Origin: Micromonospora yangpuensis
GTDB lineage: Bacteria; Actinomycetota; Actinomycetes; Mycobacteriales; Micromonosporaceae
Length of the DNA: 64,000 bases
Direction: 5' to 3'
Assembly (NCBI RefSeq): GCF_900091615.1
Contig: NZ_FMIA01000002.1
Coordinates: forward strand, 1,860,001 to 1,924,000
Positions within the stretch are counted from its first letter, which is position 1; every line of letters starts with the position of its first letter. This document shows, piece by piece, positions 8,895-50,487 of this stretch. The notes below the pieces were generated by a model, which did not search any database, was not told the origin of the DNA, and was given only the letters and a program-made list of their open reading frames with translations. The position numbers and the translations under genes are program-made.

Positions 8895-8946
8895 CAAGGG
8901 GCCCCTGCACCACCGAAAGCGATAGGAAGGGGCCCTTCCTTACACC
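8895..8946 (-). repeat. Interspersed repeat, copy A
   Basis: Read on the minus strand it begins 4 bases after the phosphatase stop: GGTGTAAGGAAGGGGCCC, TTCC, then TTTCGGTGGTGCAGGGGCCC. It matches the copies at 17225, 22291, 48430 and 50434. GGAAGGG/CCCTTCC forms a tight hairpin, so it may act as the terminator of the phosphatase gene. Confidence 0.8.
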
Positions 8947-10650
8947 TCAGGTGAGGTGGTGGTGGGCTACCGGGCGTAGCTCGCCGTCGCCGGTGGTGCC
9001 CTCGATGGTCACCGCCGCCGACCGGCCCTCGTGCCGCAGGGTGCTCACCGCGTTGCCGAAGTACGGCCCGGCCAGCTTGCGCCACCGCACGGTCGGGCGA
9101 CGGACCCCGGCGGCGCGGGCCAGGGCGCGGGCGGCCGACGCCGGCCCGGCCGCCCAGCCCAGCTTCATCACCGGGCGCATCCCGGCCGGCACCTGGTTGT
9201 GGATCGGCGAGCAGGTGAGCTGGTGCACCGGGGTGCGCATCTCCGGCTCGGCGAACTGCGCCCGGGCCACGTACGAGTGGTGGACGTCGCCGCCGAGCAC
9301 GCTGATCGACGCCGGTGGGGCGTACGCCGGACCGGCGCCTACCCGGTCGCCGGAGGTGCCCGGCTGCCCGCTGCCGATCCGCACGAAGAGCGCGCCCAGC
9401 GCGTCGAAGGAGCGACGGAACGCCGCCCAGTGTTCCAGGTCCAGCGCGCGGCGCAGGCTCTCCCCGAACTTGGCCACCCAGGCCCGGTCGGACTCGGCCA
9501 GCCGCTCGTTCCACGACTCCACGTGGTGGATGCCCGGCGGCAGCAGCCAGGGCAGCGAGGAGCCCACCACCAGGTGGTCGTAGACGCCGTGGGCCCGGTC
9601 GACGAACCAGGACCACTCGCCGGCGGGCAGCATCGCCCGGTGACCGGGCTCCAGCACCCGGCTGCACCGGTTGTCCAGCATCACCAGCCGGGTGCGGCCC
9701 AGGTCCAGCGAGTAGCTCCACTGGTACTGCACGGCCCGCCAGCGGTCGTTGTCGTGGGCCACGTCCGACTCGGTGTCCACCCGGGCGCCGAACTCGCGCA
9801 GCACCTCGGTGGCGTCCTCGGCGGCGGTGATCTTGGCGTACAGCGGGTCGGCGGTGATCTCGTCCGGCGACAGGTTGCCCAGGTGCTGGTACACCCAGTA
9901 CGAGGCCAGTCCGCTGGCGATCCGCTCGGCCCACCACGGCTGCTCCCGCATGTCCGCGCGCCAGGCCGCGGAGGTGTTCCAGTCGTCGATGACCTCGTGG
10001 TCGTCGAAGATCATCACGCTCGGCACGGTGGAGAGCAGCCAGCGGATCTCCGGGTCCCGCCACGACTCCAGGTACAGCTTGGTGTACTCGTCGAAGCTGA
10101 CCACCTGGTCTGCCGGGGCGTCCTTGGGCCGCCGCCGGCGGCGCTTGAGCAGCCGCTGCATCGTCGGTGAGGTCTCGTCTGCGTACACCTGGTCGCCGAG
10201 GAGCACCAGCAGGTCGGGCCGGCCGGCCTCACCGGCCGCGGTCATCATCCGCCGGGCGTACGCGTCGAGGGCGTCCGGGGGCAGCTTGCGGGTGGTGGCG
10301 TGCTGGGTGGTCTCCCGGCACGAGCCGAAGATCATCCGTACCGGCTGGTCGCGGTCGTCGGCGGCCCGGGTGCGGATGACGCTCGGCGGGAACTCGCTCT
10401 CCGGCAGCGGCCAGGCCACCTCGTCGCCGATCGACACCTGGTAGGTCGTGGCGCTGTCAGGGGTGAGCCCCTCCACCACCACCAACGCGTAGTGGTGGTC
10501 GTACGCGGAGAAGGTGGGGGCGCTGCCGGTGGCGCCGTCGGCGGTGCGGACGGTGACCACGGCGGGCCCGCTCGTCTCCACCCAGATCGTCGCCCTGGTG
10601 TCGACGACCCGTCGCAGCAACGGGCCGATCAGCAGGCGGGACTCAGGCAT
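8947..10650 (-). CDS. PhoD-like alkaline phosphatase/phosphodiesterase
   Basis: The 567-residue protein has the PhoD layout. An N-terminal fibronectin-like domain comes first (ATIWVETSGPAVVTVRT), then a metallophosphatase domain with GSCRE, LLGDQVYADE, FDDHEVIDDWN and a late GDVHHSYV. These carry the Asp, Asn and His ligands of the Fe/Ca centre that hydrolyses phosphodiesters. Unlike classical secreted PhoD it shows no Tat or Sec signal from the chosen ATG at 10650 (GAGGAG 7 bases upstream), so it may be cytoplasmic. A longer frame to 10800 also lacks a signal. It is transcribed leftward, divergent from ftsY, and ends in an interspersed repeat. Confidence 0.87.
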   Translation of the reverse strand: MPESRLLIGPLLRRVVDTRATIWVETSGPAVVTVRTADGATGSAPTFSAYDHHYALVVVEGLTPDSATTYQVSIGDEVAWPLPESEFPPSVIRTRAADDRDQPVRMIFGSCRETTQHATTRKLPPDALDAYARRMMTAAGEAGRPDLLVLLGDQVYADETSPTMQRLLKRRRRRPKDAPADQVVSFDEYTKLYLESWRDPEIRWLLSTVPSVMIFDDHEVIDDWNTSAAWRADMREQPWWAERIASGLASYWVYQHLGNLSPDEITADPLYAKITAAEDATEVLREFGARVDTESDVAHDNDRWRAVQYQWSYSLDLGRTRLVMLDNRCSRVLEPGHRAMLPAGEWSWFVDRAHGVYDHLVVGSSLPWLLPPGIHHVESWNERLAESDRAWVAKFGESLRRALDLEHWAAFRRSFDALGALFVRIGSGQPGTSGDRVGAGPAYAPPASISVLGGDVHHSYVARAQFAEPEMRTPVHQLTCSPIHNQVPAGMRPVMKLGWAAGPASAARALARAAGVRRPTVRWRKLAGPYFGNAVSTLRHEGRSAAVTIEGTTGDGELRPVAHHHLT

Positions 10651-10798
10651 GCGGGAACTCCTCGGGGTGAGACGATCTCTTATTTGTACCCGCTCGGCCG
10701 GCCCGCCACCCCCTGCCAGCGGCAGCGTACCCGCTGGTCGAGCGGTTGCCGGGTGCGGTGCCTGGGACGCCGTCGCCGCCATCTGACAGGATTTCGGC

Positions 10799-11968
10799 AT
10801 GGATTACCTCCTCATCGCCCTCGCGCTGCTCGGTGTGCTGATCCTGGGCGGCATCGGACTGGTGGTGCCGCGGCTGCGCCGCCGGCAGGAGCCACCGCCG
10901 GCACCGGTCGAGCCGGAGCGGACGGCGCCGGAGGTCCAGGCGCCGGAGGCCGACCTCTCCACCGGGGTCGTGGTGGAGGCTCCACCGGTGGTCGAGGCGC
11001 CCGCGCCGACCCTGGAGGTCCCCGAGCCGACCGCCGGCCGGCTGATCCGGCTGCGGTCGCGGCTCTCCCGCTCGCAGAACGCCTTCGGCAAGGGGCTGCT
11101 CGGCCTGCTCAGCCGGGACCACCTGGACGAGGACGCCTGGGAGGAGATCGAGGACAGCCTGATCACCGCGGACGTCGGCATCGACGCCACCCGGGAGATC
11201 GTCGACCGGCTGCGTGAGCGTACCCGGGTCCTCGGCACCCGCTCGGCCGTCGAACTGCGGGCGCTGCTCGCCGCCGAGCTGGTGAACGCCCTCGACCCGG
11301 AGCTGGACCGGTCGCTGAACACCACAGGTAAGCCGGACGCCCCGGCGGTGTTGCTGGTGGTCGGGGTCAACGGGGCCGGCAAGACCACCACCTGCGGCAA
11401 GATCGCCCGGGTGCTGGTCGCCGACGGCCGTACCGTGCTGCTCGGCGCCGCCGACACGTTCCGGGCCGCCGCCGCCGACCAGTTGCAGACCTGGGGTGGC
11501 CGGGTGGGTGCCGAGACGGTACGCGGGCCGGAGGGTGCCGACCCGGCAAGCGTCGCCTTCGACGCGGTCCGGCGGGGCATCGACACCGGCGTGGACACCG
11601 TGCTGATCGACACCGCCGGGCGGCTGCAGAACAAGATCGGCCTGATGGACGAGCTGGGCAAGGTCAAGCGGGTGGTGACCAAGCACGGCCCGATCGACGA
11701 GACGCTGCTCATCCTGGACGCCACCACCGGGCAGAACGGTCTGGAGCAGGCCCGGGTCTTCACCGAGGTGGTCAACGTCACCGGGGTGGTGCTCACCAAG
11801 CTCGACGGCACCGCCAAGGGCGGCATCGTGATCGCCGTGCAACGCAAGCTCGGCATCCCGGTGAAGCTGGTCGGCCTGGGTGAGGGGCCGGACGATCTGG
11901 CGCCCTTCGAGCCGACCCAGTTCGTCGACGCGCTGCTCGGCACCGAGCCGCTCGCCCGGGACGCGTAA
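10799..11968 (+). CDS. ftsY: Signal recognition particle receptor FtsY
   Basis: This SRP receptor GTPase has 389 residues. It starts with a hydrophobic helix (residues 3–23) that anchors it in the membrane, then a short acidic Pro/Glu linker in place of the long A domain of E. coli. The NG domain follows, with P-loop GVNGAGKTTT, the DTFRAAAADQL box, DTAGRLQNK and TKLDGTAKGG. It binds the Ffh–nascent chain complex and passes it to SecYEG; its partner ffh is 5.4 kb downstream. Genes for nitrogen uptake and sensing lie between the two. The ATG at 10799 is the only sensible start. Confidence 0.97.
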   Translation: MDYLLIALALLGVLILGGIGLVVPRLRRRQEPPPAPVEPERTAPEVQAPEADLSTGVVVEAPPVVEAPAPTLEVPEPTAGRLIRLRSRLSRSQNAFGKGLLGLLSRDHLDEDAWEEIEDSLITADVGIDATREIVDRLRERTRVLGTRSAVELRALLAAELVNALDPELDRSLNTTGKPDAPAVLLVVGVNGAGKTTTCGKIARVLVADGRTVLLGAADTFRAAAADQLQTWGGRVGAETVRGPEGADPASVAFDAVRRGIDTGVDTVLIDTAGRLQNKIGLMDELGKVKRVVTKHGPIDETLLILDATTGQNGLEQARVFTEVVNVTGVVLTKLDGTAKGGIVIAVQRKLGIPVKLVGLGEGPDDLAPFEPTQFVDALLGTEPLARDA

Positions 11969-11974
11969 CCTCGG

Positions 11975-12838
11975 GTGACCATCGACGATCGCACCTTCAC
12001 CGGGTGGCGTGATCCGCGCCAGTCGGGGCCGCGCCTCGGGAGACCGTACGTGACTTCGCAGGAGATCCCGCTGCACGGCGGGAACGTCAGCACCGTGGTC
12101 CGGGTGGGCGACACCGTCCGGCGTAACGCCGGCCCGTGGACACCGGCCGTGCACGCCCTGTTGCGCCACCTGGAGTACGTCGGCTTCAGCGGTGCGCCCC
12201 GCGCGCTGGGCATGGACGAGCGCAACCGGGAGGTGCTGTCGTACCTGGAGGGGGAGTGCGGGGAGTACCCGCTCGCCGGGCACTGGGTGACCGACGAGGC
12301 GCTGGTGACGGTCGCCACCATGCTGCGGATGTTCCACGACGCCCAGTACGGTTTCGTGCCCCCGCCCGGGGCGGTCTGGCGCTCGTTCGGCCCGCCGCCG
12401 CCGGACACCGAGGTGATCTGCCATCACGACGCCGCCCCGCACAACGTGATCTGGCGACCGGACGGCACCCTCGGGCTGATCGACTTCGACCTCGCCTCGC
12501 CCGGCGCGCGGATCTACGACGTCGCCTACGCCGCCTGGACCTGGGTGCCGATCTTCTCCGACCGGGACTCGATAACCCTGGGCTGGAAGCGCCCGGACCG
12601 GCCGCGCCGGCTGCGGCTCTTCGCCGACGCGTACGGGCTGATCCCCCGGGACCGGCACCGGCTGATCCGGACCATCCGCAAGCGGATCGTCGACCACGTC
12701 GAGGGGATCCGGCGGATGGCCGCCGCCGGCGAGCCGGCTTTCGTCCGGATCGTGCACAAGGGTCACCTTCGTCGCCCCATGCGTGACCTGCGCCTGCTCG
12801 ACTACGAGCGGCACGCCCTGGAGCACGCGCTGCGCTGA
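11975..12838 (+). CDS. Phosphotransferase of the APH (aminoglycoside/choline kinase-like) family
   Basis: This 287-residue soluble protein carries the kinase-fold catalytic loop HHDAAPHNVIW and the metal-binding LIDFDLAS, which correspond to HGDxxxxN and DxD of the APH family. The N-terminal lobe is small, starting GNVSTVVRVGDTVRR. The substrate cannot be told from sequence; family members act on antibiotics, choline, homoserine or sugars. The GTG at 11975 lies 6 bases after the ftsY stop, so the two are probably cotranscribed. Nothing suggests a dedicated resistance role. Confidence 0.8.
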   Translation: MTIDDRTFTGWRDPRQSGPRLGRPYVTSQEIPLHGGNVSTVVRVGDTVRRNAGPWTPAVHALLRHLEYVGFSGAPRALGMDERNREVLSYLEGECGEYPLAGHWVTDEALVTVATMLRMFHDAQYGFVPPPGAVWRSFGPPPPDTEVICHHDAAPHNVIWRPDGTLGLIDFDLASPGARIYDVAYAAWTWVPIFSDRDSITLGWKRPDRPRRLRLFADAYGLIPRDRHRLIRTIRKRIVDHVEGIRRMAAAGEPAFVRIVHKGHLRRPMRDLRLLDYERHALEHALR

Positions 12839-12908
12839 CCGGGTCGGGGAGACCCCCTCCACCGACCGGTCCGCCGACCTCGGCCGTTGTGCCGATGGTG
12901 CGGTTTTC

Positions 12909-12968
12909 TTCACACGTTGGAAACAAGCCGTCACGCCTTGGAAATCGACGGGGCACGTTCCGTGAAAC
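12909..12968 (+). promoter_or_regulatory. GlnR boxes upstream of amt
   Basis: TTCAC-N6-GAAAC (12909–12924), then five bases, GTCAC-N6-GAAAT (12930–12945), then a weaker GGCAC-N7-GAAAC (12952–12968). The alternating CAC and GAAA half-sites match the GlnR box pattern (gTnAC-n6-GaAAC) known from the amtB promoter of Streptomyces. They sit 90–150 bases before the amt start and imply activation of amt–glnB–glnD under nitrogen limitation. Confidence 0.82.
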
Positions 12969-13058
12969 AGCCGCCGGAGAGAGTTCCGCGCAACCGGCGT
13001 ACGGGCGACGCTGCCCCGGAAGCCGCGAAGGAGGGAACCCCACTTTTAGGAGGCCAGC

Positions 13059-14793
<1,735 letters not shown>

Positions 14794-14808: not shown

Positions 14809-17229
14809 ATGGCCTCGTCGATCAGGAAGAACGTGTCTGCATCCGCCCCGGGCGGTGACGCGCGACGCCTGGTCGACGAGGCCGTCGGCGTGCCCGGCGG
14901 GGTGGGGGCGTCGGCCCGGGCGGCCCGGGCCGATGCGTACGACCGTTGGTTGGGTTCGCTGCTGCCGGCCCGGCCCGGGGTGGCCCTGGTCGCCGTCGGC
15001 GGGCTCGGCCGGCGCCAGTGCGCCCCCTACGGCGATCTCGACCTGGTGCTGTTGCACGCCGGCGTGCCCGGCGTCGACGAGCTGGCCGCGTCGCTGTGGT
15101 ACCCGATCTGGGACGCCGGGGTCCGGCTGGACCACTCGGTGCGCACCGTCGCCGAGGCGCTGTCGGTGGCCCAGGACGACGTCAAGGTCGCCCTCGGCCT
15201 GCTCGACGCCCGGTACGTCGCCGGTGACCGCGAGCTGGCCGACTCGCTGATCCGCACCGCCGCCGACCACTGGCGGCGCACCGCCGTCCGTCAGCTCCCC
15301 GGGCTGCGGGAGATCACCCTGGCCCGCTGGCAGGCCCACGGTGAGCTGGCCTTCCTGCTCGAAGGTGACCTCAAGGAGGCCGCCGGAGGGCTGCGCGACG
15401 TGGGCATCCTGCGGGCGATCGCCACCGCCGGGGTCACCGACGCGCTCCGCCCGGCGGTGCACGCCGCGCACCGCCGGCTGCTGGACACCCGCGACGCCCT
15501 GCACCAGCAGGTCGGCCGCCGGGTGGACCGACTGCTCGCCCAGGAACGCGACGGCGTCGCCGCCCTGCTCGGCCTGCGCGCCCCCGACATCGTCACCGAC
15601 CCGGGCACGGGCCGGCCCGGCGACGGTGGGCCGGACGCGGCGGTGGCCGGCGACGGTGGGCCGGGCGTGGGCCTGACCGGCGGCGGTGCGCTGACCGGCG
15701 ACGGTGGTCCGGGTCTGGTCCGCGACGGTGACCTGGTGCTGCGGCGGGTCGCCGGGGACGCCCGGACGGTCGGGCACGCCCTCGACGACGCCTGGCGGGC
15801 CGCCGACCGGATGCGCTCCGGGCGACGCCGCGGGATCCCCGGGCCGCCGGTGCGTCGACCCGTGGCCCGGGACGTGGTCGAGCACGACGGCGAGCTGGTA
15901 CTGGCCCGTACCGCCATCGGCGCCCGCCCCGACCCCAGCCTGTCGCTGCGGGTGGCCGCGGCGGCGGCCACCACCCGGCTGCCCATCGCCCGGGCCACCT
16001 GCGAGTGGCTGGCGGCGTACTGCCCGGCGCTGCCCGCCCCCTGGCCGCCGGAGGCCCGCGCCGCGCTGCTCACCCTGCTCGGCGCGGGGGCCGGCCTGGT
16101 GCCGGCCTGGGAGGCCTGCGACCGGTACGGCCTGGTCGACCGTTGGCTGCCGGAGTGGACCCGGCTGCGCAGCCTGCCCCAGCACAACCCGGTGCACCGG
16201 TTCACCCTCGACCGGCACCTGGTGCAGACCGCGTACGAGGCGAGCCGGCACACCCGTGACGTCGACCGTCCCGACCTGCTGCTGCTCGGCGCGTTCCTGC
16301 ACGACATCGGCAAGGGCCTCGGCGGCGACCACAGCCTGGTCGGCGCACCGATCGCCGAGGCGATGGCCGCCCGGACGGGACTGCCGGCGACGGAGGCGGC
16401 GCTGATCGGCACCCTGGTCCGGCTGCACCTGCTCCTGCCGGACGTGGCCACCCGCCGGGACCTCTCCGACCCCAAGACCATCGCCGGGGTGGCCGAACGG
16501 GTAGGCGACACCACCACCCTGGACCTGCTGCACGCGCTGGTACGCGCCGACGCCGCCGCCACCGGCCCGGCCGCCTGGTCGGACTGGAAGGGACGGCTGG
16601 TCGCCGAACTCGTCTCCCGGGTGCGTACCGCCCTGGACACCGGGGTGGTGCCGGCGCCACCGGACCCGGATCCGGCGCTGGTGGCCGGGCCACTGCCGGT
16701 CGTACACCTGGCTGCCGACCGGGTGTCGGTGGCCGCGGCGGACCGACGCGGCCTGCTCGCGACGGTGGCCGGTTGCCTGGCCCTGCACCGGCTGGAGGTG
16801 CTCGCCGCGGATGCCGCCACGGTCGACGGCCGGGCCCTGGTCCAGTTCCGGGTGCAGCCCCGGTACGGGCTCGCACCCGACCCGATCGCGCTCACCGCCG
16901 ACCTGCGCCGGGCCGTCAACGGCGACGTCTCGGTCACCCAACGGCTGCGCGGCCGGGCGCTGGCCGCCCGGGGCGAGGGAGCCGCCCCGCGGGTGGTCTG
17001 GCACCGGGAGGCGGCCACCGACGCGGTCCTGCTGGAACTGCGCGCGGCCGACGCCGCCGGCCTGCTCTACCGGGTCGCCTGCGCGCTGGACGAGGCCGGC
17101 GCCCAGGTCCGGGCGGCCCGGATCGCCACCCTCGGCGCCGACGTGGTGGACACCTTCTACCTGGTCGGCGGCGCCCCCACCGACCCCGAACGGGCCCGCT
17201 TGGAGGCCGCCGTCCTCACCGCGGTGTAA
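14809..17229 (+). CDS. glnD: PII nucleotidyltransferase/removing enzyme GlnD
   Basis: This is an 806-residue sensor of glutamine status. The nucleotidyltransferase domain has GGLGRRQCAPYGDLDLVLL near residues 64–82. A central helical region follows, then the HD domain with FLHDIGKG near 490, then two C-terminal ACT domains (about 640–806) that bind glutamine. In actinobacteria it adenylylates and deadenylylates GlnK. Residues about 265–305 are a Gly/Asp-rich insert with an imperfect GDGGPG repeat, absent from the enterobacterial enzyme and probably disordered. The ATG at 14809 has GGAG 8 bases upstream. The stop codon overlaps the start of interspersed repeat copy B. Confidence 0.95.
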   Translation: MASSIRKNVSASAPGGDARRLVDEAVGVPGGVGASARAARADAYDRWLGSLLPARPGVALVAVGGLGRRQCAPYGDLDLVLLHAGVPGVDELAASLWYPIWDAGVRLDHSVRTVAEALSVAQDDVKVALGLLDARYVAGDRELADSLIRTAADHWRRTAVRQLPGLREITLARWQAHGELAFLLEGDLKEAAGGLRDVGILRAIATAGVTDALRPAVHAAHRRLLDTRDALHQQVGRRVDRLLAQERDGVAALLGLRAPDIVTDPGTGRPGDGGPDAAVAGDGGPGVGLTGGGALTGDGGPGLVRDGDLVLRRVAGDARTVGHALDDAWRAADRMRSGRRRGIPGPPVRRPVARDVVEHDGELVLARTAIGARPDPSLSLRVAAAAATTRLPIARATCEWLAAYCPALPAPWPPEARAALLTLLGAGAGLVPAWEACDRYGLVDRWLPEWTRLRSLPQHNPVHRFTLDRHLVQTAYEASRHTRDVDRPDLLLLGAFLHDIGKGLGGDHSLVGAPIAEAMAARTGLPATEAALIGTLVRLHLLLPDVATRRDLSDPKTIAGVAERVGDTTTLDLLHALVRADAAATGPAAWSDWKGRLVAELVSRVRTALDTGVVPAPPDPDPALVAGPLPVVHLAADRVSVAAADRRGLLATVAGCLALHRLEVLAADAATVDGRALVQFRVQPRYGLAPDPIALTADLRRAVNGDVSVTQRLRGRALAARGEGAAPRVVWHREAATDAVLLELRAADAAGLLYRVACALDEAGAQVRAARIATLGADVVDTFYLVGGAPTDPERARLEAAVLTAV

Positions 17230-17280
17230 GGAAGGGCCCCCTGTTAACGCATTCGGTAGAGAAGGGTTCCCCTCTCACCG
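17225..17280 (+). repeat. Interspersed repeat, copy B
   Basis: TGTAAGGAAGGGCCCC then CTGTTAACGC, ATTCGGTAGAGAAGGG and TTCCCC. The TAA of glnD is the TAA of the repeat. It has the same two-part layout as the copies at 8895, 22291, 48430 and 50434. It lies between glnD and ffh and could end the nitrogen operon transcript. Confidence 0.85.
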
Positions 17281-20882: not shown

Positions 20883-22289
20883 ATGGCTCGCGTGCTCACT
20901 CCCCGTGCGGAGGACTTTCCCCGCTGGTACCAGGATCTGATCGCCAAGGCGAAGCTGGCCGACAACGGCCCGGTGCGCGGAACGATGGTGATCCGACCGG
21001 CCGGCTACGCCATCTGGGAGCGGATGCAGGCCGAGATGGACGCCCGGATCAAGGCGGCCGGCGCGGAGAACGCGTACTTCCCGCTGTTCATTCCGGAGAG
21101 CTACCTCAAGCGGGAGGCCCAGCACGTCGAGGGCTTCTCGCCGGAGCTGGCCGTGGTCACCCACGGTGGCGGCAAGCAGCTGGCTGAGCCGGTCGTGGTC
21201 CGCCCCACCAGCGAGACGGTGATCGGCGAGTTCATGGCCAAGTGGGTCGACTCGTACCGGGATCTGCCGTTGCTGCTCAACCAGTGGGCGAACGTGGTCC
21301 GCTGGGAGCTGCGGCCCCGGATCTTCCTGCGTACCAGCGAGTTCCTCTGGCAGGAGGGGCACACCGCGCACGCCACCGAGGCCGACGCCCGCGCCTACGC
21401 GCGCAAGATCCTGCATGAGGCGTACGAGGACCTGATGGCGACCGTGCTGGGCATCCCGGTGCTGGTCGGCCTCAAGACCGCCCGGGAGCGGTTCGCCGGT
21501 GCCACCGCCACGTACACCTGCGAAGGCATGATGGGCGACGGCAAGGCGTTGCAGCTCGGCACCAGCCACGAGCTGGGGCAGAACTTCGCCAAGGCCTTCG
21601 ACATCAGCTACTCCTCGGCCGAGGGCGGCCGGGAGCACGCCTGGACCACCTCCTGGGGCACCTCGACCCGGATGCTCGGCGGTCTGATCATGTGCCACGG
21701 CGACGACAACGGGCTCCGGGTGCCGCCGAGGCTGGCCCCGATCCAGGCGTACGTGATGGTGGTCAAGGACGGCGAGGGGGTCGGCGAGGCCGCGACCGGG
21801 CTGCGCGACGCGCTGCGTGACGCGGGGGTCCGGGTCGCGCTCGACGACCGGACCGACACCGCCTTCGGCCGCCGGGCCGTCGACGCCGAACTGCGCGGCT
21901 ACCCGGTACGCGTCGAGGTCGGCCCCCGCGACCTGGCCGCCGGCAACGCGGTCGTGGTGCGCCGTACCGACGGGTCGAAGTCCCCGACCGCGGTGGCCGA
22001 CGTGGTCGGCGCGGTGCGCGCGGCGCTGGAAGCCGACCAGCAGGCGCTCTACGACCAGGCGCTGGCCCACCGGGAGTCGCGCACCGTCGAGGTGGCCACC
22101 CTCGCCGAGGCGATCGAGGCGGCGGCCACCGGGTGGGCCCGGGTGCCCTGGTCGGCGGTGGGCGTGGCGGGGGAGACCGAGGCCAACGCCCAGGGCGTCA
22201 CGGTCCGCTGCCTGCTGCGCGCCGACGGCTCCGTCCCCGACTCCGAGGACGAGCCGGACCTGCAGGCCATCCTCGCCCGCGCCTACTAG
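20883..22289 (+). CDS. proS: Prolyl-tRNA synthetase, archaeal/eukaryotic type
   Basis: This class II aminoacyl-tRNA synthetase has 468 residues. It contains the motif 2 region RWELRPRIFLRTSEFLWQEGHTAH and lacks the large editing insertion of the usual bacterial ProRS, so it is the short archaeal/eukaryotic-like form. It ends LQAILARAY; a C-terminal tyrosine is typical of that form and reaches the active site. The anticodon-binding domain starts near residue 280. The ATG at 20883 (MARVLTPRAEDF) was chosen; a GTG frame from 20793 adds unrelated residues. An interspersed repeat follows the stop. Confidence 0.95.
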   Translation: MARVLTPRAEDFPRWYQDLIAKAKLADNGPVRGTMVIRPAGYAIWERMQAEMDARIKAAGAENAYFPLFIPESYLKREAQHVEGFSPELAVVTHGGGKQLAEPVVVRPTSETVIGEFMAKWVDSYRDLPLLLNQWANVVRWELRPRIFLRTSEFLWQEGHTAHATEADARAYARKILHEAYEDLMATVLGIPVLVGLKTARERFAGATATYTCEGMMGDGKALQLGTSHELGQNFAKAFDISYSSAEGGREHAWTTSWGTSTRMLGGLIMCHGDDNGLRVPPRLAPIQAYVMVVKDGEGVGEAATGLRDALRDAGVRVALDDRTDTAFGRRAVDAELRGYPVRVEVGPRDLAAGNAVVVRRTDGSKSPTAVADVVGAVRAALEADQQALYDQALAHRESRTVEVATLAEAIEAAATGWARVPWSAVGVAGETEANAQGVTVRCLLRADGSVPDSEDEPDLQAILARAY

Positions 22290-22290: not shown

Positions 22291-22350
22291 GGTGTAAGGA
22301 AGGGCCCCCTGTTAACGCTTTCTGTATAGGAAGGGCCCCCTCCTAACGCT
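22291..22350 (+). repeat. Interspersed repeat, copy C
   Basis: GGTGTAAGGAAGGGCCCC then CTGTTAACGCTTTCTG, TATAGGAAGGGCCCCC and TCCTAACGCT. This is the clearest two-unit copy, with both halves carrying AAGGGCCCCC and TAACGC. It begins 2 bases after the proS stop. Confidence 0.87.
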
Positions 22351-35693: not shown

Positions 35694-37178
35694 GTGAACG
35701 ACAGGCCGTTACGTCCACCGAATGGCGCGCCGCACCTGGCGTCACATACGGTGCCGGACGTGGACGGACGACGGAGCTTTCCCGAAGATCAGGAGCCGCA
35801 CTGGTATCCCGCGGAGCGCGGATACGGTGAGCCGGAGTGGCAGGCGACGGAGGAGAGCCGCTACCAGACGGACGGCTTCGTCCTGCCGGACCAGCGGACC
35901 GAGCCGGGGCAGCGGCGCTATGACGAGCGGGACGAGCCGACCGTCCGGCGCCCCGGTGACACCGGGCGGTACGGCGCCGACGACCCCCTCGGCGGGGAGG
36001 GCGCGGACACGGACAGCTACCTGCCCACCCGGAGCCGGCGGGGCGAGCCGTCGGGCGAGGTGACCGCCGGTGGCCGGGCTGCCGATTCCCAGCGGCGTCG
36101 GGCGGCCCACACGTCGATGGAGATCGCCCTGCCGGTGCCCCGCCGACCGGTCGCCGTGCCGGTCTCGACGGACCCGTACGCCCCGCCGGCTTCGGCGGAC
36201 CCTTACGCCGTGCCGGTCTCGGCGGACCCCTACGCCCCGCCGGTCTCGGCGGACCCCTACGCCCCGCCGGTCTCGGCGGACCCGTACGCCGCCGAGCGGC
36301 AGCCGGTCGATCCGGTGCGGTCGTCGCCGCTGGCCGGGTACCCGATCGTCGGGCCGAGCCGGGGAGCGGAACCGGGCCGGACGAATCCGCCCACCGATCC
36401 GGCCCGCGGCACGGACCCGGTCGAGCCGCTTGCCGGCCCGGAGCCGGAGCACGCCACCGACCTGGGGCGGGCCATCGACCCGAGCCGGGGTGCTGACCTG
36501 GACCGGGGTGCCGATCCGGGGCGGAACACCGGGCCGGCCCGCTTCGTCGACACCGGCGCAGGGGGGCTGAACCGCCCGGCCGACCTGGGCCGGGACGCAG
36601 CCCAGGGCGTGGCGACCGACCAGGGTACCGAGTCCGGTCGGAGCACGGAGCACGGTCGGGGCGTGGAGCACGGCCCGGGCGCCGTCCCGGGCCAGGGCGC
36701 GCAGGCGGCGTTGGGCACCGGGGGCGGACGGCCGGCCGAGCCGCCGCATCCGCTGGAGCTGCCGACCGGGCCGATGCCGCCGATCGCGCCGCGTCCGGAC
36801 CTGGCCGGGCCGGGTGCCGACCCCGGCGCGTACGGGCCCGACGGGGGGCGGCTGCCCGGTGCCCCGGTGGGGGACGGGGTGTACCGCACCCGCCGTCCCG
36901 CGCTCGCCGTACTGCTCGCGCTTTTGGTCGTCTTCTTCGAGGTGCCGGCGCTGCGGGTGTTCTACAACGGCCTGGTCGGTGACCCGTTGTCGACCGCCAA
37001 CGTGGTGGTCGGCACCTTCCTGGTCGCCGGGTTGCCGATCTTCGCGATCGGGCTCTACGGGCTGCGTACCGGGGGATTGGCGATCTCCGACGGTCGGGGC
37101 TGGCTCCGGCCGCCGACGGCCTACCTGACGGTCGGTCTGGTCCTCTTCCTCGCCGCCGCGCTGGCCGCCGGCTCGTAG
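35694..37178 (+). CDS. Membrane protein with a long Pro/Gly/Asp-rich cytoplasmic region
   Basis: Of 494 residues, the first 400 are hydrophilic and disordered, and the last 95 hold three membrane helices ([50 protein letters not shown]). A nine-residue repeat SADPYAPPV occurs four to five times near 160–200, followed by GRGADP-like repeats. No known domain is seen. The start is unsure: GTG at 35694, or GTG at 35760 (VDGRRSF), neither with a clear ribosome site. It may be a species-specific envelope or division protein; function unknown. Its stop lies inside a tandem repeat. Confidence 0.72.
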
Positions 37179-43773: not shown

Positions 43774-45246
43774 GTGGCGAGTCAGGGTCAGCGGTTCCGG
43801 CGCAAGGCGCTGCGCCGCGGGTACAAGGTCGACGAGGTCGACGCCTTCCTGGACCGGGTCGAAGCGACCCTCGACGGCCGGTCCGTCGGTGCCCCGGTGG
43901 CTTCCCAGGAGGTCCACGACGTCGTCTTCCGGGTTCGCTTCAACGGCTACGACGAGTGGCAGGTCGACCTCCATCTGGATCGGGTCGAGCGACAGTTGGC
44001 CGAGCTGGAGGAGCGCGGTGGCGCCGCCACCGGCCGCGGTGAGGCGCGGACTCCCGACCGACTCGGCCCGCCGCCGGAGCGGACGGCTCCGGACCGGATG
44101 AACCCCGACCGCATGGGACCGCCGGACCGGGGCGGCGAGGACCGGATGGGTTCCCCGGACCGGATGGCCCTCGACCGGATCGGACCCCCCGACCGGATGG
44201 CCCTCGACCGGATGGGCCCGCCCGACCGCATGGGTCCGCCGGATCGGATGGGCCCCCCTGACCGGATGGGACCTCCTGATCGGATGGGTCCGCCTGACCG
44301 GATGGGACCCCCTGACCGGATGGGTCCGCCGGATCGGATGGGTCCGCCGGATCGGATGGGACCCCCTGATCGGATGGGACCCCCTGATCGGATGGGACCT
44401 CCTGATCGGATGGGTCCGCCGGATCGGATGGGCCCGCCGGATCGGATGGGACCCCCGGATCGGATGGGTCCGCCGATGCGGGATGACCGGGGCATGCCGC
44501 CCGGGCCGCAGCCGATGCCGCCCCGCGCCATGCCGGGGCAGGGCGGGCCGCCGCCGGACCGTTACGGTCGGTACGAGGAGAACACCGGCGGGTTCGCCGC
44601 CGGCTACGACGCGCCGCAACGCGGCGGGTACGACGCACCGCGTACGCCGACCGGTCCGGGGCCCGGGATGGGCGGCCCGGGCGCTCCGATGGGGCCGGGT
44701 GGTCACGGCGGCCCCGCGCCGCGCGGTCTGCCGGCCGGGCCCAGCGGGTACGGCCCGGAGGAGCCCCGCTTCGACGGCTTCGAGGCCGGTCGACACGGGC
44801 GGGCCGACATGACCGCCGAGATCAGGATGCCCGAACACGAGCTGCGTGAGCTGCGCGGGGGCCGGGGTCCGGCTGGTCCGCCACCGGTGCCGTCGCAGGC
44901 GCCAGGTGGCCCACCCATGGCCCCGCCACCGCCGATGGGCGGTCCGCCGCCCGCCGGTCCGCCGATGATCGGTCCGCCGATGGCCGGTCCCCCCGGCAGC
45001 GACCTGCACCAGGTCGACCAGATCCGCCGCAGTTTCCAGGTACGCCGGTTCGGTAGCGGCTACGACCCGGACCAGGTGGACCACTTCTTCGAGAGTCTGC
45101 TCGGCGCGATGGCGGGGCGGGGCCCCATGCCGGTCAACCCGAAGGACCTGGACACTCTCCGCTTCGGTCTGGTGCCCGGCGGGTACTTCGAGGCGGAGGT
45201 CGACTCGGCCCTCAAGGACGTCCAGGACATCCTCTTCGGCCGCTGA
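43774..45246 (+). CDS. DivIVA-like protein with a long DRMGPP repeat
   Basis: This 490-residue protein has two DivIVA-type domains, one at each end. The N-terminal one is FRRKALRRGYKVDEVDAFLDRVEATL; the C-terminal one, FQVRRFGSGYDPDQVDHFFE, has the same GY-x-x-x-x-VD-x-F core. Between them lie about 15 uninterrupted DRMGPP hexapeptides plus variants (residues about 105–235), then a Gly/Pro-rich stretch. DivIVA proteins mark curved membrane and guide tip growth or division. No long coiled coil is visible, so this is not the canonical Wag31. The GTG at 43774 follows AGGAGA. Confidence 0.85.
   Translation: MASQGQRFRRKALRRGYKVDEVDAFLDRVEATLDGRSVGAPVASQEVHDVVFRVRFNGYDEWQVDLHLDRVERQLAELEERGGAATGRGEARTPDRLGPPPERTAPDRMNPDRMGPPDRGGEDRMGSPDRMALDRIGPPDRMALDRMGPPDRMGPPDRMGPPDRMGPPDRMGPPDRMGPPDRMGPPDRMGPPDRMGPPDRMGPPDRMGPPDRMGPPDRMGPPDRMGPPDRMGPPMRDDRGMPPGPQPMPPRAMPGQGGPPPDRYGRYEENTGGFAAGYDAPQRGGYDAPRTPTGPGPGMGGPGAPMGPGGHGGPAPRGLPAGPSGYGPEEPRFDGFEAGRHGRADMTAEIRMPEHELRELRGGRGPAGPPPVPSQAPGGPPMAPPPPMGGPPPAGPPMIGPPMAGPPGSDLHQVDQIRRSFQVRRFGSGYDPDQVDHFFESLLGAMAGRGPMPVNPKDLDTLRFGLVPGGYFEAEVDSALKDVQDILFGR
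44092..44476 (+). repeat. 18-bp in-frame tandem array inside the DivIVA-like gene
   Basis: The unit is GACCGGATGGGACCCCCT, with third-position changes (GAT, GGT, CCG). The encoded DRMGPP stays constant while synonymous sites vary among copies. Outer copies are degenerate (DRMALDRIGPP). Confidence 0.93.
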
Positions 45247-45276: not shown

Positions 45277-45316
45277 GAAGGTAGGGGCCGCACCGATCGG
45301 TGCGGCCCCTACCTTC
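45277..45316. terminator. Bidirectional terminator, 40-bp perfect palindrome
   Basis: AAGGTAGGGGCCGCACCGA (45278–45296) is followed without any spacer by its exact reverse complement (45297–45315); G45277/C45316 extends it. It sits between the convergent DivIVA-like and DUF2631-like genes, 30 and 42 bases from their stops, so it can end both transcripts. Confidence 0.92.
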
Positions 45317-45357
45317 GACAGGTCGCCAGGATCACCGCCCGAGCGGCGGGCGTCGGG

Positions 45358-45579
45358 TCAGGAACGCAGACCGTTGCGGCGCAGCACCACGTCGCCGATC
45401 ACAATGCCCAGCAGCAGTACGGCGATGCCGACCAGCCAGAGATCCTCGACCCTGCCCTCGTGGTTGCCGCAGATCATCGCCAGCATCGCCAGCGCGGTGA
45501 CCACCGCGCCGATCCGGCCGGCCTTCCGGTGTCCAGGCTTGTGCTGATCGGGCGACGTTACCGGCTCACTGCCTGCCAC
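45358..45579 (-). CDS. Small membrane protein, DUF2631-like
   Basis: This 73-residue protein has a polar N-terminus (MAGSEPVTSPDQHKPGHRKA), two helices (IGAVVTALAMLAMICG and LWLVGIAVLLLGIVIGDVVL) and a short basic end RRNGLRS. It resembles the actinobacterial DUF2631 family, function unknown. It is transcribed leftward from its own promoter, divergent from namH; the gap 45580–45792 holds no other gene. Confidence 0.78.
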   Translation of the reverse strand: MAGSEPVTSPDQHKPGHRKAGRIGAVVTALAMLAMICGNHEGRVEDLWLVGIAVLLLGIVIGDVVLRRNGLRS

Positions 45580-45792
45580 TGTCGGTCCTTCCCTCGCTCT
45601 GCGGATCTCCGATCAGTCTGGCACGTCCGGCCGTCGCGGCTGCGCAGGGTCCACCACGGGGCCGGTGCCACCCGCCGGCAGGGGCCGTTCGGCACGGGGC
45701 GAAGGGCACTACCGGCGTCGCGGGTTGTCGACCACACTGCCTCCGGTAGCGTTCTGACGTACGCCTTGATTGCCTTGTTGAGGGAGACTGCG

Positions 45793-47376
45793 GTGCGAGT
45801 GACCGGTACGGGCCATGCCAGCATGCGGATCGACACGGCCGCGGGCAGCATCCTGTGCGACCCGTGGGTCAATCCGGCCTACTTCGCCTCCTGGTTCCCC
45901 TTCCCCGACAACTCCCTGCTGGACTGGGAGACCCTCGGACAGGTCGACTACCTGTACGTCTCCCACCTGCACCGGGACCACTTCGACGCGAAGCACCTGC
46001 GGGACTTCGTCAGCAAGGACGCCACCGTCCTGCTCCCCGAGTTCCCCACCTCCGAGATGGAGGACGAGTTTCGCGCGCTGGGCTTCACCAAATTTCTCAA
46101 GGCCCCGAACGAGCAGGTCGTCGAGCTCGACGGCGGCCTGAAGATCATGATCCAGGCGTTGACCAGCCCCACCGACGGTCCGATCGGTGACTCCTCGCTC
46201 TGGGTGGAGTACGACGGGGTCCGGCTGCTCAACCAGAACGACGCCCGCCCGACCGACCTGGGCCTCTTCACCGAGTTGGGGCACGTGCACGCCCACCTGC
46301 TCCAGTTCTCCGGGGCCATCTGGTACCCGATGGTCTACGAACTGCCGCAGTCGGCCAAGACCGCGTTCGGCAAGCAGAAGCGGGACCGTCAGTTCGACCG
46401 GACCTGGCGCTACATCGACGACCTGAAGGCCTCGCACGTCTTCCCGATCGCCGGCCCGCCGTGCTTCCTCGACGACGCGTTGTGGCAGTTCAACGACATC
46501 CACGGCGACGAGGGGAACATCTTCCCCGACCAGTCGGTCTTCCTGGCCGAGTACGCCAAGGTCGGCGGGACCAACGGCATCGTGCTGCTGCCCGGCAGCG
46601 TCGCCGAGGTCACCACCTCCGGCGCGACGACCACCCATCCGCAGCCGGTCGAGGAGTTCTTCGCCAACAAGGTCGCCCACCTGGAAGAGATGCGCGAGCG
46701 CAAGCGGCCGGTCATCGAGGCGGAGAAGGCGTCCTGGCGGCACCCGGAGATCGACGTCCTGAAGGAGATGAAGCGGCGGATCGAGCCGCTGCTCGACGAG
46801 TCGATCTACCTGGCCAAGGGGGTGGGTGGCCCGGTCCGCTTCGACCTCGTCAGCCCGGACGGCTCGGGTGGGGAGAGCGTCGAGTCGATCGTGGTGGACT
46901 TCCCGGGCAAGGAGGTCCGTCCGTACGCCGACGAGAAGGTGCGGTACCGGTTCCGTACCGAGCGGGCACTGATCGAGCACCTGTTGCACATCGGCGAGGT
47001 GGACTGGGTCAACTCGCTCTTCCTCTCCTGCCGGTTCTCGGCGGCCCGGATCGGCCAGTACAACGAGTTCGTGTACGCCTTCTTCAAGTGCCTCTCCACC
47101 GAGCGCCTCCAGTACGCCGAGGGCTGGTACGACGAGCACGAGCGGGCGGTCGACGCCGAGGACATCACCCTCGGTGATTGGGTCGTGCAGCGTCGCTGCC
47201 CGCACCTGAAGGCCGACCTGAGCCGGTTCGGCATCGTCGAGGGCGACCAGCTCACCTGTCAGCTGCACGGCTGGAAGTTCGACCTGCCCAGCGGTCGCTG
47301 CCTGACCAGCGTGGGGCACAAGGTCCGGGCGCACCGGGTAGGCGAGGAGGAGGCGACCCCGCAGTCGGCTCCGTAG
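45793..47376 (+). CDS. namH: Metallo-β-lactamase-fold/Rieske protein, probable UDP-MurNAc hydroxylase
   Basis: The 527-residue protein combines an MBL-like N-terminal domain (DPWVNPAYFASWFPFPDN, SHLHRDHFD) with a C-terminal Rieske 2Fe–2S domain (CPHLKADL … CQLHGWKFDLPSGRC, near 470–500). This is the layout of mycobacterial NamH, which hydroxylates UDP-N-acetylmuramic acid to the N-glycolyl form, and of the related CMP-sialate hydroxylase. Glycolylated muramic acid is a known trait of Micromonosporaceae, so the assignment fits. The GTG at 45793 gives MRVTGTGHASMRID. It appears to stand alone. Confidence 0.82.
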   Translation: MRVTGTGHASMRIDTAAGSILCDPWVNPAYFASWFPFPDNSLLDWETLGQVDYLYVSHLHRDHFDAKHLRDFVSKDATVLLPEFPTSEMEDEFRALGFTKFLKAPNEQVVELDGGLKIMIQALTSPTDGPIGDSSLWVEYDGVRLLNQNDARPTDLGLFTELGHVHAHLLQFSGAIWYPMVYELPQSAKTAFGKQKRDRQFDRTWRYIDDLKASHVFPIAGPPCFLDDALWQFNDIHGDEGNIFPDQSVFLAEYAKVGGTNGIVLLPGSVAEVTTSGATTTHPQPVEEFFANKVAHLEEMRERKRPVIEAEKASWRHPEIDVLKEMKRRIEPLLDESIYLAKGVGGPVRFDLVSPDGSGGESVESIVVDFPGKEVRPYADEKVRYRFRTERALIEHLLHIGEVDWVNSLFLSCRFSAARIGQYNEFVYAFFKCLSTERLQYAEGWYDEHERAVDAEDITLGDWVVQRRCPHLKADLSRFGIVEGDQLTCQLHGWKFDLPSGRCLTSVGHKVRAHRVGEEEATPQSAP

Positions 47377-47421
47377 CTGCTCCGTAGCGGCCCCGGCCAT
47401 CGAGTTGATCCACTGGCTACG

Positions 47422-48405
47422 ATGCTGGCCATGCAGCAGCCCTCCGTAAGCATCGCGCCCGGATCCGCGCTCGGCACGGCGATCTCCGCCTACCGCACCT
47501 GTGAGCTGGCAACGCTTGCCAAGGACGGTACGCCGGTCGCCTGGCCGACCTCCGGGCTGCTCCGGCAGGACGGCACGATCATGATCACCACCTCCCTGGG
47601 GTACCCGCAGAAGGCGTTCAACGTACGCCGCGATCCCCGGGTGGCGGTGCTCTTTTCCGACCCCACGGCCAGCGGGCTGACCCAGCCCGAGCAGATCCTG
47701 GTACGCGGCACGGCGGACTGCCCCGACGAGGTGCACACCGAGCCGACCGGAGACCTGGGCGCCTTCTGGGCGCAGATGTTCCAGCGCCAGCCGGTCAGCC
47801 GTACCTACCTCAACTGGCCGGCGACCATGTTCACCGACTTCTACTTCATGCGGCTGTTGATCACCGTCACCCCGACCGAGGTGACCACCCGTCCGCTGCC
47901 GACCACCACCGCCACGGCGGCCGGGGGTGCGGCGTCGACGTCGACCGAGGGCGGCTCACCGGTCGAGGGCCTGGTCGGTGCGCAGGTGCTGGCGGCGTAC
48001 CCGAGTGTGGTGTTGGCGGCCCTGGACGGAAGCGGGGCGCCGCTGTTGGTGCGCACCACCGTGACTGTCGGCGCGGACGGCTACCGGGTGGTGGTGCCGG
48101 ACGGGGTGGAACCCGTCGAGGGCCCGGCCAGCCTGCTGGTCCACCAGCACGACGCGCAGTTGTGGAACCTGCACAACGCCAACGTGCGCGGTGAGCTGGT
48201 CCGCGGTACGGACGGCTGGATGCTGCGCCCGCGGCGACTGATCGAGCCGGCCGCCCGGCACCGGCCCCGCCGGACGGACTCGCTGCGCACGGTGCGTACC
48301 ACCCGGGCCGCCACCCGCCGCTACCTGGAACGGCGCGGCTGGAAGCGCCCCACCATCCCGTGGGCGGTCTACCGCGCCCTGCGCCCCGACGGCAGCAGTC
48401 GGTAG
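47422..48405 (+). CDS. Pyridoxamine-phosphate-oxidase-like FMN-binding protein
   Basis: Of 327 residues, the first 155 form the split-barrel flavin fold (RTCELATLAKDGTPVAWPT, IMITTSLGYPQKAFNVRRDPRVAVLFS). It is followed by a Thr-rich linker and about 150 residues with no recognised domain. The group includes F420- or FMN-dependent reductases of general detoxification; the substrate is unknown. Two in-frame ATGs (47422, 47431) are possible starts. It follows namH by 45 bases and may be cotranscribed with it. Confidence 0.78.
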   Translation: MLAMQQPSVSIAPGSALGTAISAYRTCELATLAKDGTPVAWPTSGLLRQDGTIMITTSLGYPQKAFNVRRDPRVAVLFSDPTASGLTQPEQILVRGTADCPDEVHTEPTGDLGAFWAQMFQRQPVSRTYLNWPATMFTDFYFMRLLITVTPTEVTTRPLPTTTATAAGGAASTSTEGGSPVEGLVGAQVLAAYPSVVLAALDGSGAPLLVRTTVTVGADGYRVVVPDGVEPVEGPASLLVHQHDAQLWNLHNANVRGELVRGTDGWMLRPRRLIEPAARHRPRRTDSLRTVRTTRAATRRYLERRGWKRPTIPWAVYRALRPDGSSR

Positions 48406-48429
48406 CCGAGCCCTTCCTGTCACCGATGG

Positions 48430-48484
48430 TGAGAAGGGTTCCCCGCTAGACCGGAAGCGTTAACAGGGGGCCCTTCCTTACCCC
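48430..48484 (-). repeat. Interspersed repeat, copy D
   Basis: On the minus strand it starts right after the oxidoreductase stop: GGGGTAAGGAAGGGCCCC, CTGTTAACGCTTCCGG, TCTAGCGGGGAACCC, TTCTCACC. The second half carries the AAGGGTTCCCC core of copy B inverted. A partial extra motif (CCCTTCCTGTCACC) follows to the left. Confidence 0.82.
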
Positions 48485-50080
48485 TCAGTGGTCGAGGTCG
48501 GCGAGGATGCGTCGGGCGGCGTTGTGGCCGGCGGCACCGATCACGCTGCCGGCCGGGTGACAGCCGGCGCTGCCCGCGTACACCCCGTCGACCCCGGTCG
48601 CGTACGGCATCCGGTCGGCGAACGAGACGGTGTTGTCGACGTGGTGGATGTGCCCGCCGGTGATGCCGAAGTGCGCCTCGATGCCGGGTGGGGGCAGCGG
48701 CACCGCGTCGGCGATCAGGTCGCCGGTGCCGGGCGCGTACCGTTCGCAGATCTGCACCAGCCGCTCGACGTAGCCGGGCAGCGCCGCGTCCCACGTGGTG
48801 TCGGCAAGATCGTACGGCACCGACTGGACGAAGAGCGCCGACGAGTGGTGCCCGGCCGGGTCGGCCAGCGACGGGTCGACGGTGGTGTGCAGGTACCACT
48901 CGATGGTGGGCTCGGCGGGCAGCCGGCCGGCCCGTACGTCGTCCCACATGGCGCGCAGCGCGGCCATCGGCGGCGCACCCCCACCACCGGTCAGCGACGC
49001 CGACCCGGGCAGCAGGTGGATGGTGGAGCCGAACGGGCTCGGCGCGTCCTGCGGCAGGCAGGAGAACCGGGGCAGGCCGCGCAGGGCCAGGTTGAGCTTG
49101 AGCGTGGTGCCGGTACGCCGCACCGCCGCCATCCGCGCGCTGAGCGGTTCCGGTAGCGCACCGTCGGGCAACAACCCCATCAACCGGTACGGGTCGCAGG
49201 CGCCGAGCACCACCTCGGCGCGGACCGCCCGCCCGTCGGCGAGCACCACCCCGCTGGCCGCCCCACCGTCGAGGGTGATCGCCGTGACGGGTGCGCCGGT
49301 GACGATCCGGGCTCCGGCGGCGCGGGCGGCGTCGGCGAAGGTGCCCGACACGGTGCCCATCCCACCTTCGGCGATCATCCAGGTGCCGCCGGAGCCGGGC
49401 AGCCGGCACATGTTGTGCACCAGGAAGTTGTGCCCCGTCCCGGGGTCGTCCGGCCCGGCGTTCAGCCCGGACAGCCCGTCGGTGACCGCGTACATGCTGA
49501 CCAGCAGCTCGGAGCGGAACTCGAAGCGGGCCAGGTAGTCGGCGACCGAGCCGCCGACCAGGTCGGTGAAGACCTGCCGCAGCGCCGGCCGGACGTAGCG
49601 CTGCGCGGTCTCGGCGACCGGCAGCGGGTCGGCGAGCCAGGCCGGCGCGAGGTCGTCGCGCAGCGCGGCCAGCTCGGCCTGCATGGCCTCGTCGGCGGCC
49701 ACGTCGGCGGGGGAGAAGAACTCCGCGAGCTGCGCCCGGGTCGCCGCCTGGTCACTGCCCATCAACAGGTACGGCGAGCCAGGGCCGCCCGGGGTGGGCA
49801 GGAAGTAGTGCGGGTCGCGGCGCAGCACCGGGATCCGCACGTCGAGCGTGGCCAGCAACTCCGGCGGCATCAACCCCAGCAGGTACGACCCGGTGGAGTG
49901 ACGTAACCCGGGGACCTTCGGAAACGGCCGTTCGGTGCGGGTGGCGCCCCCGATCACCCCGGCGGCCTCCAGCACCAGCACGTCGAGCCCGGCGCGGGCC
50001 AGCAGGATCGCGGAGACCAGCCCGTTGTGCCCGGCCCCGACGATCACCACATCGGCCCGCGCCGGCAGCTGACCCTCCAC
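48485..50080 (-). CDS. Phytoene-desaturase-like FAD oxidoreductase
   Basis: This 531-residue flavoprotein starts with the dinucleotide-binding fold VVIVGAGHNGLVSAILLARAGLDVLVLEAAG, cited here by its GAGHNG core, followed by GGATRTE. It belongs to the crtI/PDS-like amine-oxidase clan, nearest to the PYROXD2-type NAD(P)/FAD proteins. No carotenoid cluster is nearby, so its substrate is open. The GTG at 50080 has AGGA 8 bases upstream; the frame extends to 50245 through low-complexity repeats. It ends in the interspersed repeat copy D. Confidence 0.82.
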   Translation of the reverse strand: MEGQLPARADVVIVGAGHNGLVSAILLARAGLDVLVLEAAGVIGGATRTERPFPKVPGLRHSTGSYLLGLMPPELLATLDVRIPVLRRDPHYFLPTPGGPGSPYLLMGSDQAATRAQLAEFFSPADVAADEAMQAELAALRDDLAPAWLADPLPVAETAQRYVRPALRQVFTDLVGGSVADYLARFEFRSELLVSMYAVTDGLSGLNAGPDDPGTGHNFLVHNMCRLPGSGGTWMIAEGGMGTVSGTFADAARAAGARIVTGAPVTAITLDGGAASGVVLADGRAVRAEVVLGACDPYRLMGLLPDGALPEPLSARMAAVRRTGTTLKLNLALRGLPRFSCLPQDAPSPFGSTIHLLPGSASLTGGGGAPPMAALRAMWDDVRAGRLPAEPTIEWYLHTTVDPSLADPAGHHSSALFVQSVPYDLADTTWDAALPGYVERLVQICERYAPGTGDLIADAVPLPPPGIEAHFGITGGHIHHVDNTVSFADRMPYATGVDGVYAGSAGCHPAGSVIGAAGHNAARRILADLDH

Positions 50081-50122
50081 ACCCACGATCCTAGTGCCCA
50101 CCGCCCGCCCCACCGCGCCCGT

Positions 50123-50430
50123 CGCCGGTGCGGCCTTGCGCGTGGTGCGGCCTTGCGCGTGGTGCGGCCTTGCGCGTGGTGCGGGCCTTGCGTGCGGTAC
50201 GGCCTCCGTGCGTGATGCGGCCCTTGCGTGTGGTGTGGCCTCCATGCGTGGTGCGGCCTACGTGCGTGATGCGGCCTTGCGTGTGGTGTGGCCTTGCGTG
50301 TGGTGGGCCTCCGTGCGTGGGCGGGGTGCCGCGCAGAGCGGCTCTCCGCGCGGGCGGCTCTCCGCGCGGGCGGCTCTCCGCGCGGGCAGGCCTCCGTGAG
50401 CGGGCGGCCCTCCGCGCGGGGAGGGCTCCG
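50123..50430. repeat. Two adjacent intergenic tandem arrays
   Basis: From about 50128 to 50330 a 17-bp unit TTGCGCGTGGTGCGGCC repeats about 11 times with drift (CCTCCGTGCGTGATGCGG). From 50331 a 16-bp unit CTCTCCGCGCGGGCGG follows, about six times. They fill the gap between the divergent oxidoreductase and MMPL genes. Reading frames through them are repeats of the type RPHHAQG and are not credible proteins. Confidence 0.9.
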
Positions 50431-50433
50431 CGC

Positions 50434-50487
50434 GTAAGAAGGGGACCCTTCTCTACCGTATGCGTTAAGAAGGGGCCCTTCCTTTCC
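50434..50487 (-). repeat. Interspersed repeat, copy E
   Basis: Minus strand: AAAGGAAGGGGCCCCTTC-type start, TTAACGCATACGG, TAGAGAAGGGTCCCC, TTCTTACGCG. It is the only copy not placed after a stop: it lies just before the ribosome site of the MMPL gene, in a divergent gap. Confidence 0.82.

Follow-up and report, generated by a model that had tools for sequence, protein, structure and literature searches.

A repeated palindrome at the stop codons of Micromonospora yangpuensis genes

In a 64,000-nucleotide stretch of the Micromonospora yangpuensis genome (assembly GCF_900091615.1, contig NZ_FMIA01000002.1, positions 1,860,001 to 1,924,000; hereafter the window), five copies of a short palindromic repeat belong to a high-copy, mostly intergenic family whose conserved end is usually fixed at, or just after, a same-strand stop codon. 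Within part of the Micromonosporaceae the family is probably ancient; its copies seem by now to descend mostly in situ and to be maintained by selection. We tentatively view it as a set of gene-end palindromes akin to repetitive extragenic palindromic (REP) sequences, inherited and selected, and read as sequence in the mRNA at the stop codon. The function of the element, and any factor that would read it, are what we infer from the patterns described below.

Anatomy, copy number and position relative to stop codons

The element is an imperfect palindrome of approximately 54 nt, in which the left arm (AAGGAAGGGCCCC...TAACGC) is nearly invariant and the right arm variable; the two, separated by a short centre, constitute imperfect terminal inverted repeats, as in a miniature inverted-repeat transposable element (MITE). 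A full unit reads GTAAGGAAGGGCCCCYTGTTAACGC (with variants), followed by the short centre and a right arm such as GGTATAGCGGGGCACCCCTCTCAC. The left head is GTAA (in some copies GCAA or GAAA), and GTAG opens the right half in many, not all, copies. A search of the whole genome (6.52 Mb, two contigs) for the left half at no more than three mismatches returned 349 matches, among which one site may be represented more than once, as against none for a reversed-pattern control; chance is thereby excluded, and the copy number supports the amplification that the original prediction had proposed. Forward (182) and reverse (167) matches reveal no overall strand bias. The smaller contig of this genome (C1 of G000, 24 kb) seems to repeat the start of the larger (C2) and looks redundant, since element matches keep a constant offset of 10132 between the two.

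Position relative to genes was scored in an 844-kb sample consisting of the window and 39 more or less evenly spaced 20-kb stretches (L032, a stretch picked for a cluster, was excluded), with genes called by a simple gene caller written for this analysis. Distances are measured along the gene, from where the stop codon ends to the initial G of GTAAGG. Removal of overlaps left 50 left halves, composites giving more than one each, and 35 of these are stop-anchored: 16 lie at −4, where the TAA of the element is itself the stop of the gene, and 19 at 0 to +9 on the same strand. For non-coding positions and strands drawn at random, the corresponding shares are 0.2% at −4 and 1.8% at 0 to +9 (about 2% together), so that the excess after stop codons, scored by both distance and strand as had been suggested, is about 35-fold. 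Two of the three outcomes named beforehand as refuting the original prediction, a scarcity of further copies and the lack of an excess after stops, are thereby contradicted. The window had been selected because of its copies; without it, 31 of 43 left halves are stop-anchored. TAA is a rare stop codon in this genome, terminating 52 of the 712 called genes in the sample, and 16 of these 52 are supplied by the element.

All five predicted window copies are present at about the sites given for them; the coordinates listed here are approximate spans.

Copy A, 8890..8943, minus strand: conserved left arm at 8919-8943, +3 nt from the TGA stop of a PhoD-like phosphatase gene (8947-10650, minus strand)
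Copy B, 17226..17279, plus strand: distance −4; glnD (14890-17229, plus strand) uses the copy's own TAA (17227-17229) as its stop codon
Copy C, 22294..22347, plus strand: +4 nt from the TAG stop of proS (20883-22289, plus strand)
Copy D, 48430..48481, minus strand: left arm at 48457-48481, +3 nt from the TGA stop of an FAD/amine-oxidase-like gene (48485-50080, minus strand)
Copy E, 50434..50486, minus strand: not behind a stop codon; it points against the MMPL gene (50500-52689, plus strand) in whose 5' region it lies

The claims that four of the five copies lie within 4 bases of a same-strand stop (A at +3, B at −4, C at +4, D at +3) and that copy B shares its TAA with glnD both hold. Position 8895, at which copy A had been placed, does fall inside that copy, but in the far end of its right arm. 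The opposite orientations ascribed to the cores of copies B and D reflect strand only, as copies A to D all run along their own gene with the conserved arm first. Copy E lies 13 nt from the MMPL start codon as set by the gene caller used here, and is adjoined by GC-rich 17/18-bp tandem repeats (window 50112-50320) between the two divergent genes.

Shared gene ends, conservation and distribution

Many of the present copies look inherited, since their sites are common to other species. In a scan with glnD that retained the best 80 of 532 loci, the glnD end carries the element in at least 10 other species, in 8 of them at −4 with the shared TAA and in 2 at +8; the proS end carries it in 11 other species, and the PhoD-like end (the site of copy A) in 5. 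For the FAD-oxidase end (copy D), 90 other genomes were searched; of the 29 other loci read, 6 hold a copy with at most five mismatches, and two more look, by eye, like altered copies. For copy E, 28 of these 29 loci showed no match in the 500 nt upstream of the FAD gene. Anchoring recurs outside M. yangpuensis, with 5 of 8 copies (and one at −2) in G006, 6 of 7 (and one at −2) in G021, and 31 of 34, over a range of −5 to +9, in 16 named carrier loci. An insertion truncating the genes is unsupported at glnD and proS, where the last codons are mostly identical with and without the element (exceptions occur); at the FAD-oxidase end the last codons differ in some carriers.

Conservation within the element is asymmetric. 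Mean pairwise identity at glnD, computed without gaps and with 2 of 13 rows mis-registered, is 0.87 over the left 25 nt, 0.61 over the right 29 nt, 0.60 over the last 60 nt of the gene and 0.36 over the next 56 nt. When copies are retrieved by the right arm alone, the 13-nt left-arm core AAGGAAGGGCCCC is invariant in 35 of 35 and the right arm varies; sequence rather than pairing seems to be what is kept. Locus-specific variants common to the sister species M. marina and M. chalcea at proS suggest descent in place, and the slightly higher likeness of copies within one species (0.82, 17 pairs) than at one locus (0.77, 159 pairs) speaks against a purely vertical picture.

The same gene ends hold other sequences worth recording. 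Other long hairpin repeats (GTTGATCATGAGGTT..., GATCTGTGGCAGT...) lie behind glnD and proS in L107, L129 and L136 (near 12300 and 17400), at ends where relatives carry the element but farther from the stop. A palindrome resembling CTACGTCC..GGACGTAG recurs between glnD and ffh in L079, L096, L101 and L118 and is perhaps a promoter element of ffh. In L091, a locus with no pattern match, that position 3' of proS is taken by another hairpin (GGTGTAGGGACGCACC...CCCTTCCTGACGCC), which may be a remodelled copy, and in L074 glnD is followed by GTGTAAGGAGGG and then by unrelated sequence, which looks like the first bases of the element with the rest gone.

Related species tend either to keep the element widely or to lack it. 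At no more than two mismatches, 16 of 37 genomes of the genus (M. yangpuensis included) hold at least 47 matches, 5 hold 1–12 and 16 hold none. A larger draw of 300 genomes of the family yielded a match in 86, from 8 of 44 genera; its 106 genomes of the genus divide into 30 with at least 54 matches, 5 with 11–47, 25 with 1–5 and 46 with none, and intermediate counts are common in other genera, partly since their sequence dialects cost mismatches against the pattern used. No match was found in 24 genomes from other families of the order, and among 396 genomes across the phylum, a draw including two genomes of the family, the only match was in M. yangpuensis itself. On a tree of 79 rows (the window and 78 loci) carriers are scattered, requiring 11 changes as against a shuffled mean of 15.6 (4 of 500 shuffles as low), with carrier status judged for each species on a single locus no longer than 22 kb, so that carriers may be missed. 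This scatter implies repeated loss or gain of the element.

The divergence of copies within a genome bears on how they are maintained. In M. yangpuensis, 35 gene ends have copies with 0–2 mismatches and none with 3–5. An intermediate genome, G089, sampled in stretches that avoided the chromosome centre, holds seven copies with 0, 2, 2, 3, 5, 6 and 6 mismatches, suggesting a constraint released over a whole genome. A scan of 329 gene ends in the non-carrier G002 found no relics above shuffled patterns, and its enriched 11-mers include no comparable repeat family that might have replaced the element after stops.

Mobility, folding and alternative explanations

Among the closest known systems are the GTAG REPs and their composites, bacterial interspersed mosaic elements (BIMEs), associated with REP-associated tyrosine transposases (RAYTs). 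As described in PMC3733652, GTAG REPs are reported in Proteobacteria, Cyanobacteria, Chloroflexi and the Planctomycetes–Verrucomicrobia–Chlamydiae (PVC) group, lie near the 3' ends of genes, to which they often contribute a TAG stop; the word Actinobacteria was not found in its main text. The present element is likewise a short high-copy palindrome near gene 3' ends that sometimes gives the stop codon, forms composites of opposed units and in many, though not all, copies opens its right half with GTAG. It differs in that its head is mostly GTAA, a Y1 transposase is neither present in M. yangpuensis nor co-distributed with it, its gene ends are common to several species and the conservation of its arms is asymmetric. 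Part of the novelty is removed by this precedent, given where REPs lie elsewhere and the TAG stops they often supply. Mycobacterium offers another actinobacterial repeat at gene edges, the mycobacterial interspersed repetitive unit (MIRU), a mobile repeat that, according to PMC12548453, inserts at start codons with a −4 spacing and an open reading frame coupled to the gene; the −4 geometry is shared, but the element sits mainly at stop codons. Literature on repeats in Micromonospora and its kin included none on this repeat, as judged by title and the start of the abstract among the matches listed, a search with the core sequence gave no paper on bacteria by title, and an Rfam search at gathering thresholds produced no match.

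Given these likenesses, a selfish element of REP or MITE type, spread by a transposase acting in trans, is a serious if somewhat less probable alternative. Gene ends would then be merely the least harmful insertion sites, and the left arm would be conserved as the recognition sequence of the transposase. Such an origin would suit GTA(A/G)-headed palindromes that form composites, reach hundreds of copies and keep a fairly uniform dialect within a genome, as well as the similar gene-end location, often with a TAG stop, of GTAG REPs in other phyla (PMC3733652). The family must, indeed, once have multiplied. However, the mobility that the original prediction envisaged was not borne out. No register of target-site duplication rose above shuffled pairings in 48 copies, although old duplications could have eroded. 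The two transposition enzyme families searched, Y1_Tnp (the RAYT domain) and RVT_1 (reverse transcriptase), do not track the element: Y1_Tnp is absent from the M. yangpuensis genome and occurs in 5 of 30 searched element-rich genomes as against 10 of 20 with few or no elements, and RVT_1 occurs in 13 of 36 genomes. Viral contigs, searched with the exact pattern, and plasmids yielded no match. Equally at odds with a selfish element are the gene ends common to several species and a left arm that stays constant as the right arm drifts. Copies are also about five times rarer at 2.3–4.1 Mb (3 in 200 kb, compared with 47 in 644 kb), a region picked after the counts were seen, as expected if copies travel with core genes.

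An ordinary intrinsic terminator hairpin, repetitive by happenstance, would account for a palindrome on the sense strand behind genes, the arms of which can pair, and for the other hairpin repeats that occupy these gene ends in certain non-carriers (L107, L129 and L136, for instance). In the minimum-energy fold, the left and right parts pair as one long imperfect hairpin in 39 of 50 left-half copies from M. yangpuensis, and the two parts pair together in 7 of 8 and 7 of 7 copies from other species; fold stability exceeds that of mononucleotide shuffles (mean z −3.7 over 65 copies). The proposal that both halves can fold thus holds only in part: they fold separately in 11 of the 50 copies and pair with each other in the remainder, and two separate hairpins are the less likely main structure. 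Neither structure, joined or separate, has strong covariation support. Scanned for compact strong stems, 115 of 402 other gene ends have one (shuffled windows give 12) and none of 35 element ends does; no copy of 35 has a U-tract, taken as at least 6 T in the following 12 nt. The compact stems at other gene ends begin at +5 to +44 in 107 of 115 cases and at −4 to +4 in 7. The idea that the element is a hairpin set closer to the stop than ordinary ones was also discarded, given that element ends have no compact stem and that the first paired base falls within 4 nt of the stop at 28 of 35 element ends and 324 of 413 others, which draws no distinction. Dropping this idea shifts a little weight away from hairpin-based explanations and towards the selfish one.

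Lacking both a compact strong stem and a U-tract, the element is unlike an ordinary terminator, and its start at −4 to +9 of the stop means that a coupled ribosome would mask its hairpin. In E. coli, as reported in PMC4824070, moving a stop codon from 28 to 5 bp before a terminator reduced efficiency from about 90% to less than 10%, a proximity that the element, flush with the stop, would share in a coupled system. A left-arm sequence conserved beyond the needs of pairing is a further departure. The terminator-like character assigned to the repeat, and with it a terminator role, is doubtful, and this explanation of the family as a whole appears improbable.

Uptake sequences of Neisseria sit in gene-end hairpins, and a DNA-level recognition site of this type, or one that organises the chromosome, kept by molecular drive and tolerated at gene ends, would be consistent with lineage dialects (such as GGGCACCTTCTTAACGC in many of the matches listed for genus g38) and with the slightly greater likeness of copies within a species, yet it is quite unlikely, because an orientation that follows the gene and a left end pinned to the stop codon are unneeded for a site read in DNA, and the genome-wide matches have no strand bias.

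The window contains further repeats: an 18-bp tandem repeat at 44152-44529, reported as 15 overlapping registers; a 27-bp tandem repeat within a called gene at 36125-36318; and a 36-nt inverted repeat (83%) at 60917-60952 and 62294-62329, flanking a called gene.

A possible role at translation termination

According to the interpretation we favour, in which the palindrome is inherited, selected and read as sequence, the element would act in the mRNA at translation termination. The left arm would be recognised as sequence, whether by a protein, by an RNA or by the ribosome as it terminates, with the loose pairing of the two arms as an aid. It may insulate termination by limiting re-initiation or scanning into the 3' untranslated region, and it may also, or instead, mark or protect the 3' end of the mRNA. 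A comparable task has been proposed for the ribosome termination structure (RTS), which, according to PMC7518266, lies directly downstream of stop codons and is suggested to limit re-initiation. Both are mRNA features right after the stop codon; the term RTS, however, covers any stable structure, at many genes, and the element consists of a single repeated sequence in which one arm is conserved and pairing is only loose. A further candidate component is a lineage-specific trans-acting factor that reads the left arm; it is proposed because the left arm is conserved beyond pairing needs and because G089 seems to have been relaxed on many copies together, as if the constraint were released genome-wide.

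Several observations weigh against this interpretation. Fifteen of the 50 left halves are not stop-anchored according to the gene caller: nine are reversed before a divergent gene, two are second halves of window copies, two lie in gene ends that read into the element, one stands at +30 and one is antisense within a called gene. The gene context of anchored copies is unremarkable, with 17 convergent and 18 tandem ends beside 147 and 242 among other gene ends at least 60 nt before the next gene, which amounts to no clear enrichment of convergent ends (17 of 35, compared with 147 of 389); three facing pairs nevertheless occur, one left arm to each convergent gene, at +7/+9, +8/+30 and +6/+1. The element is not essential, as it is found at only 35 of 712 called gene ends and most genomes of the genus hold 0–5 matches. 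Pairing in the long hairpin is weakly supported, at 77.1% compared with 76.3% in shuffles (18 of 500 as high); some slid controls outscore it on covariation, and RNAalifold retains 6 pairs. The missing compact stems and unremarkable pairing positions described above belong here as well. Finally, the argument from decay is thin, drawing on one genome and seven copies, and G006 also has one copy with four mismatches.

A bolder version of the favoured interpretation would make the element a genome-wide 'stop-codon cap', a sequence-specific RNA element that defines about 5% of gene ends and is recognised by a lineage-specific factor during termination by the ribosome. Loss of the factor would lead to joint decay of the copies, and the system would consequently tend to be present or absent as a whole. 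We regard this version as unlikely.

If the element does act as proposed, it would constitute a conserved signal coupling translation termination to the 3' end of the mRNA. To our knowledge, termination is poorly mapped in this group of bacteria. The patchy presence of the family, with orthologues whose final codon is often the same whether or not the element is present, amounts to a natural experiment comprising many matched gene ends for each pair of species. It also bears on transcription–translation coupling in these bacteria, in which a terminator flush with the stop codon should fail if the two processes are coupled.

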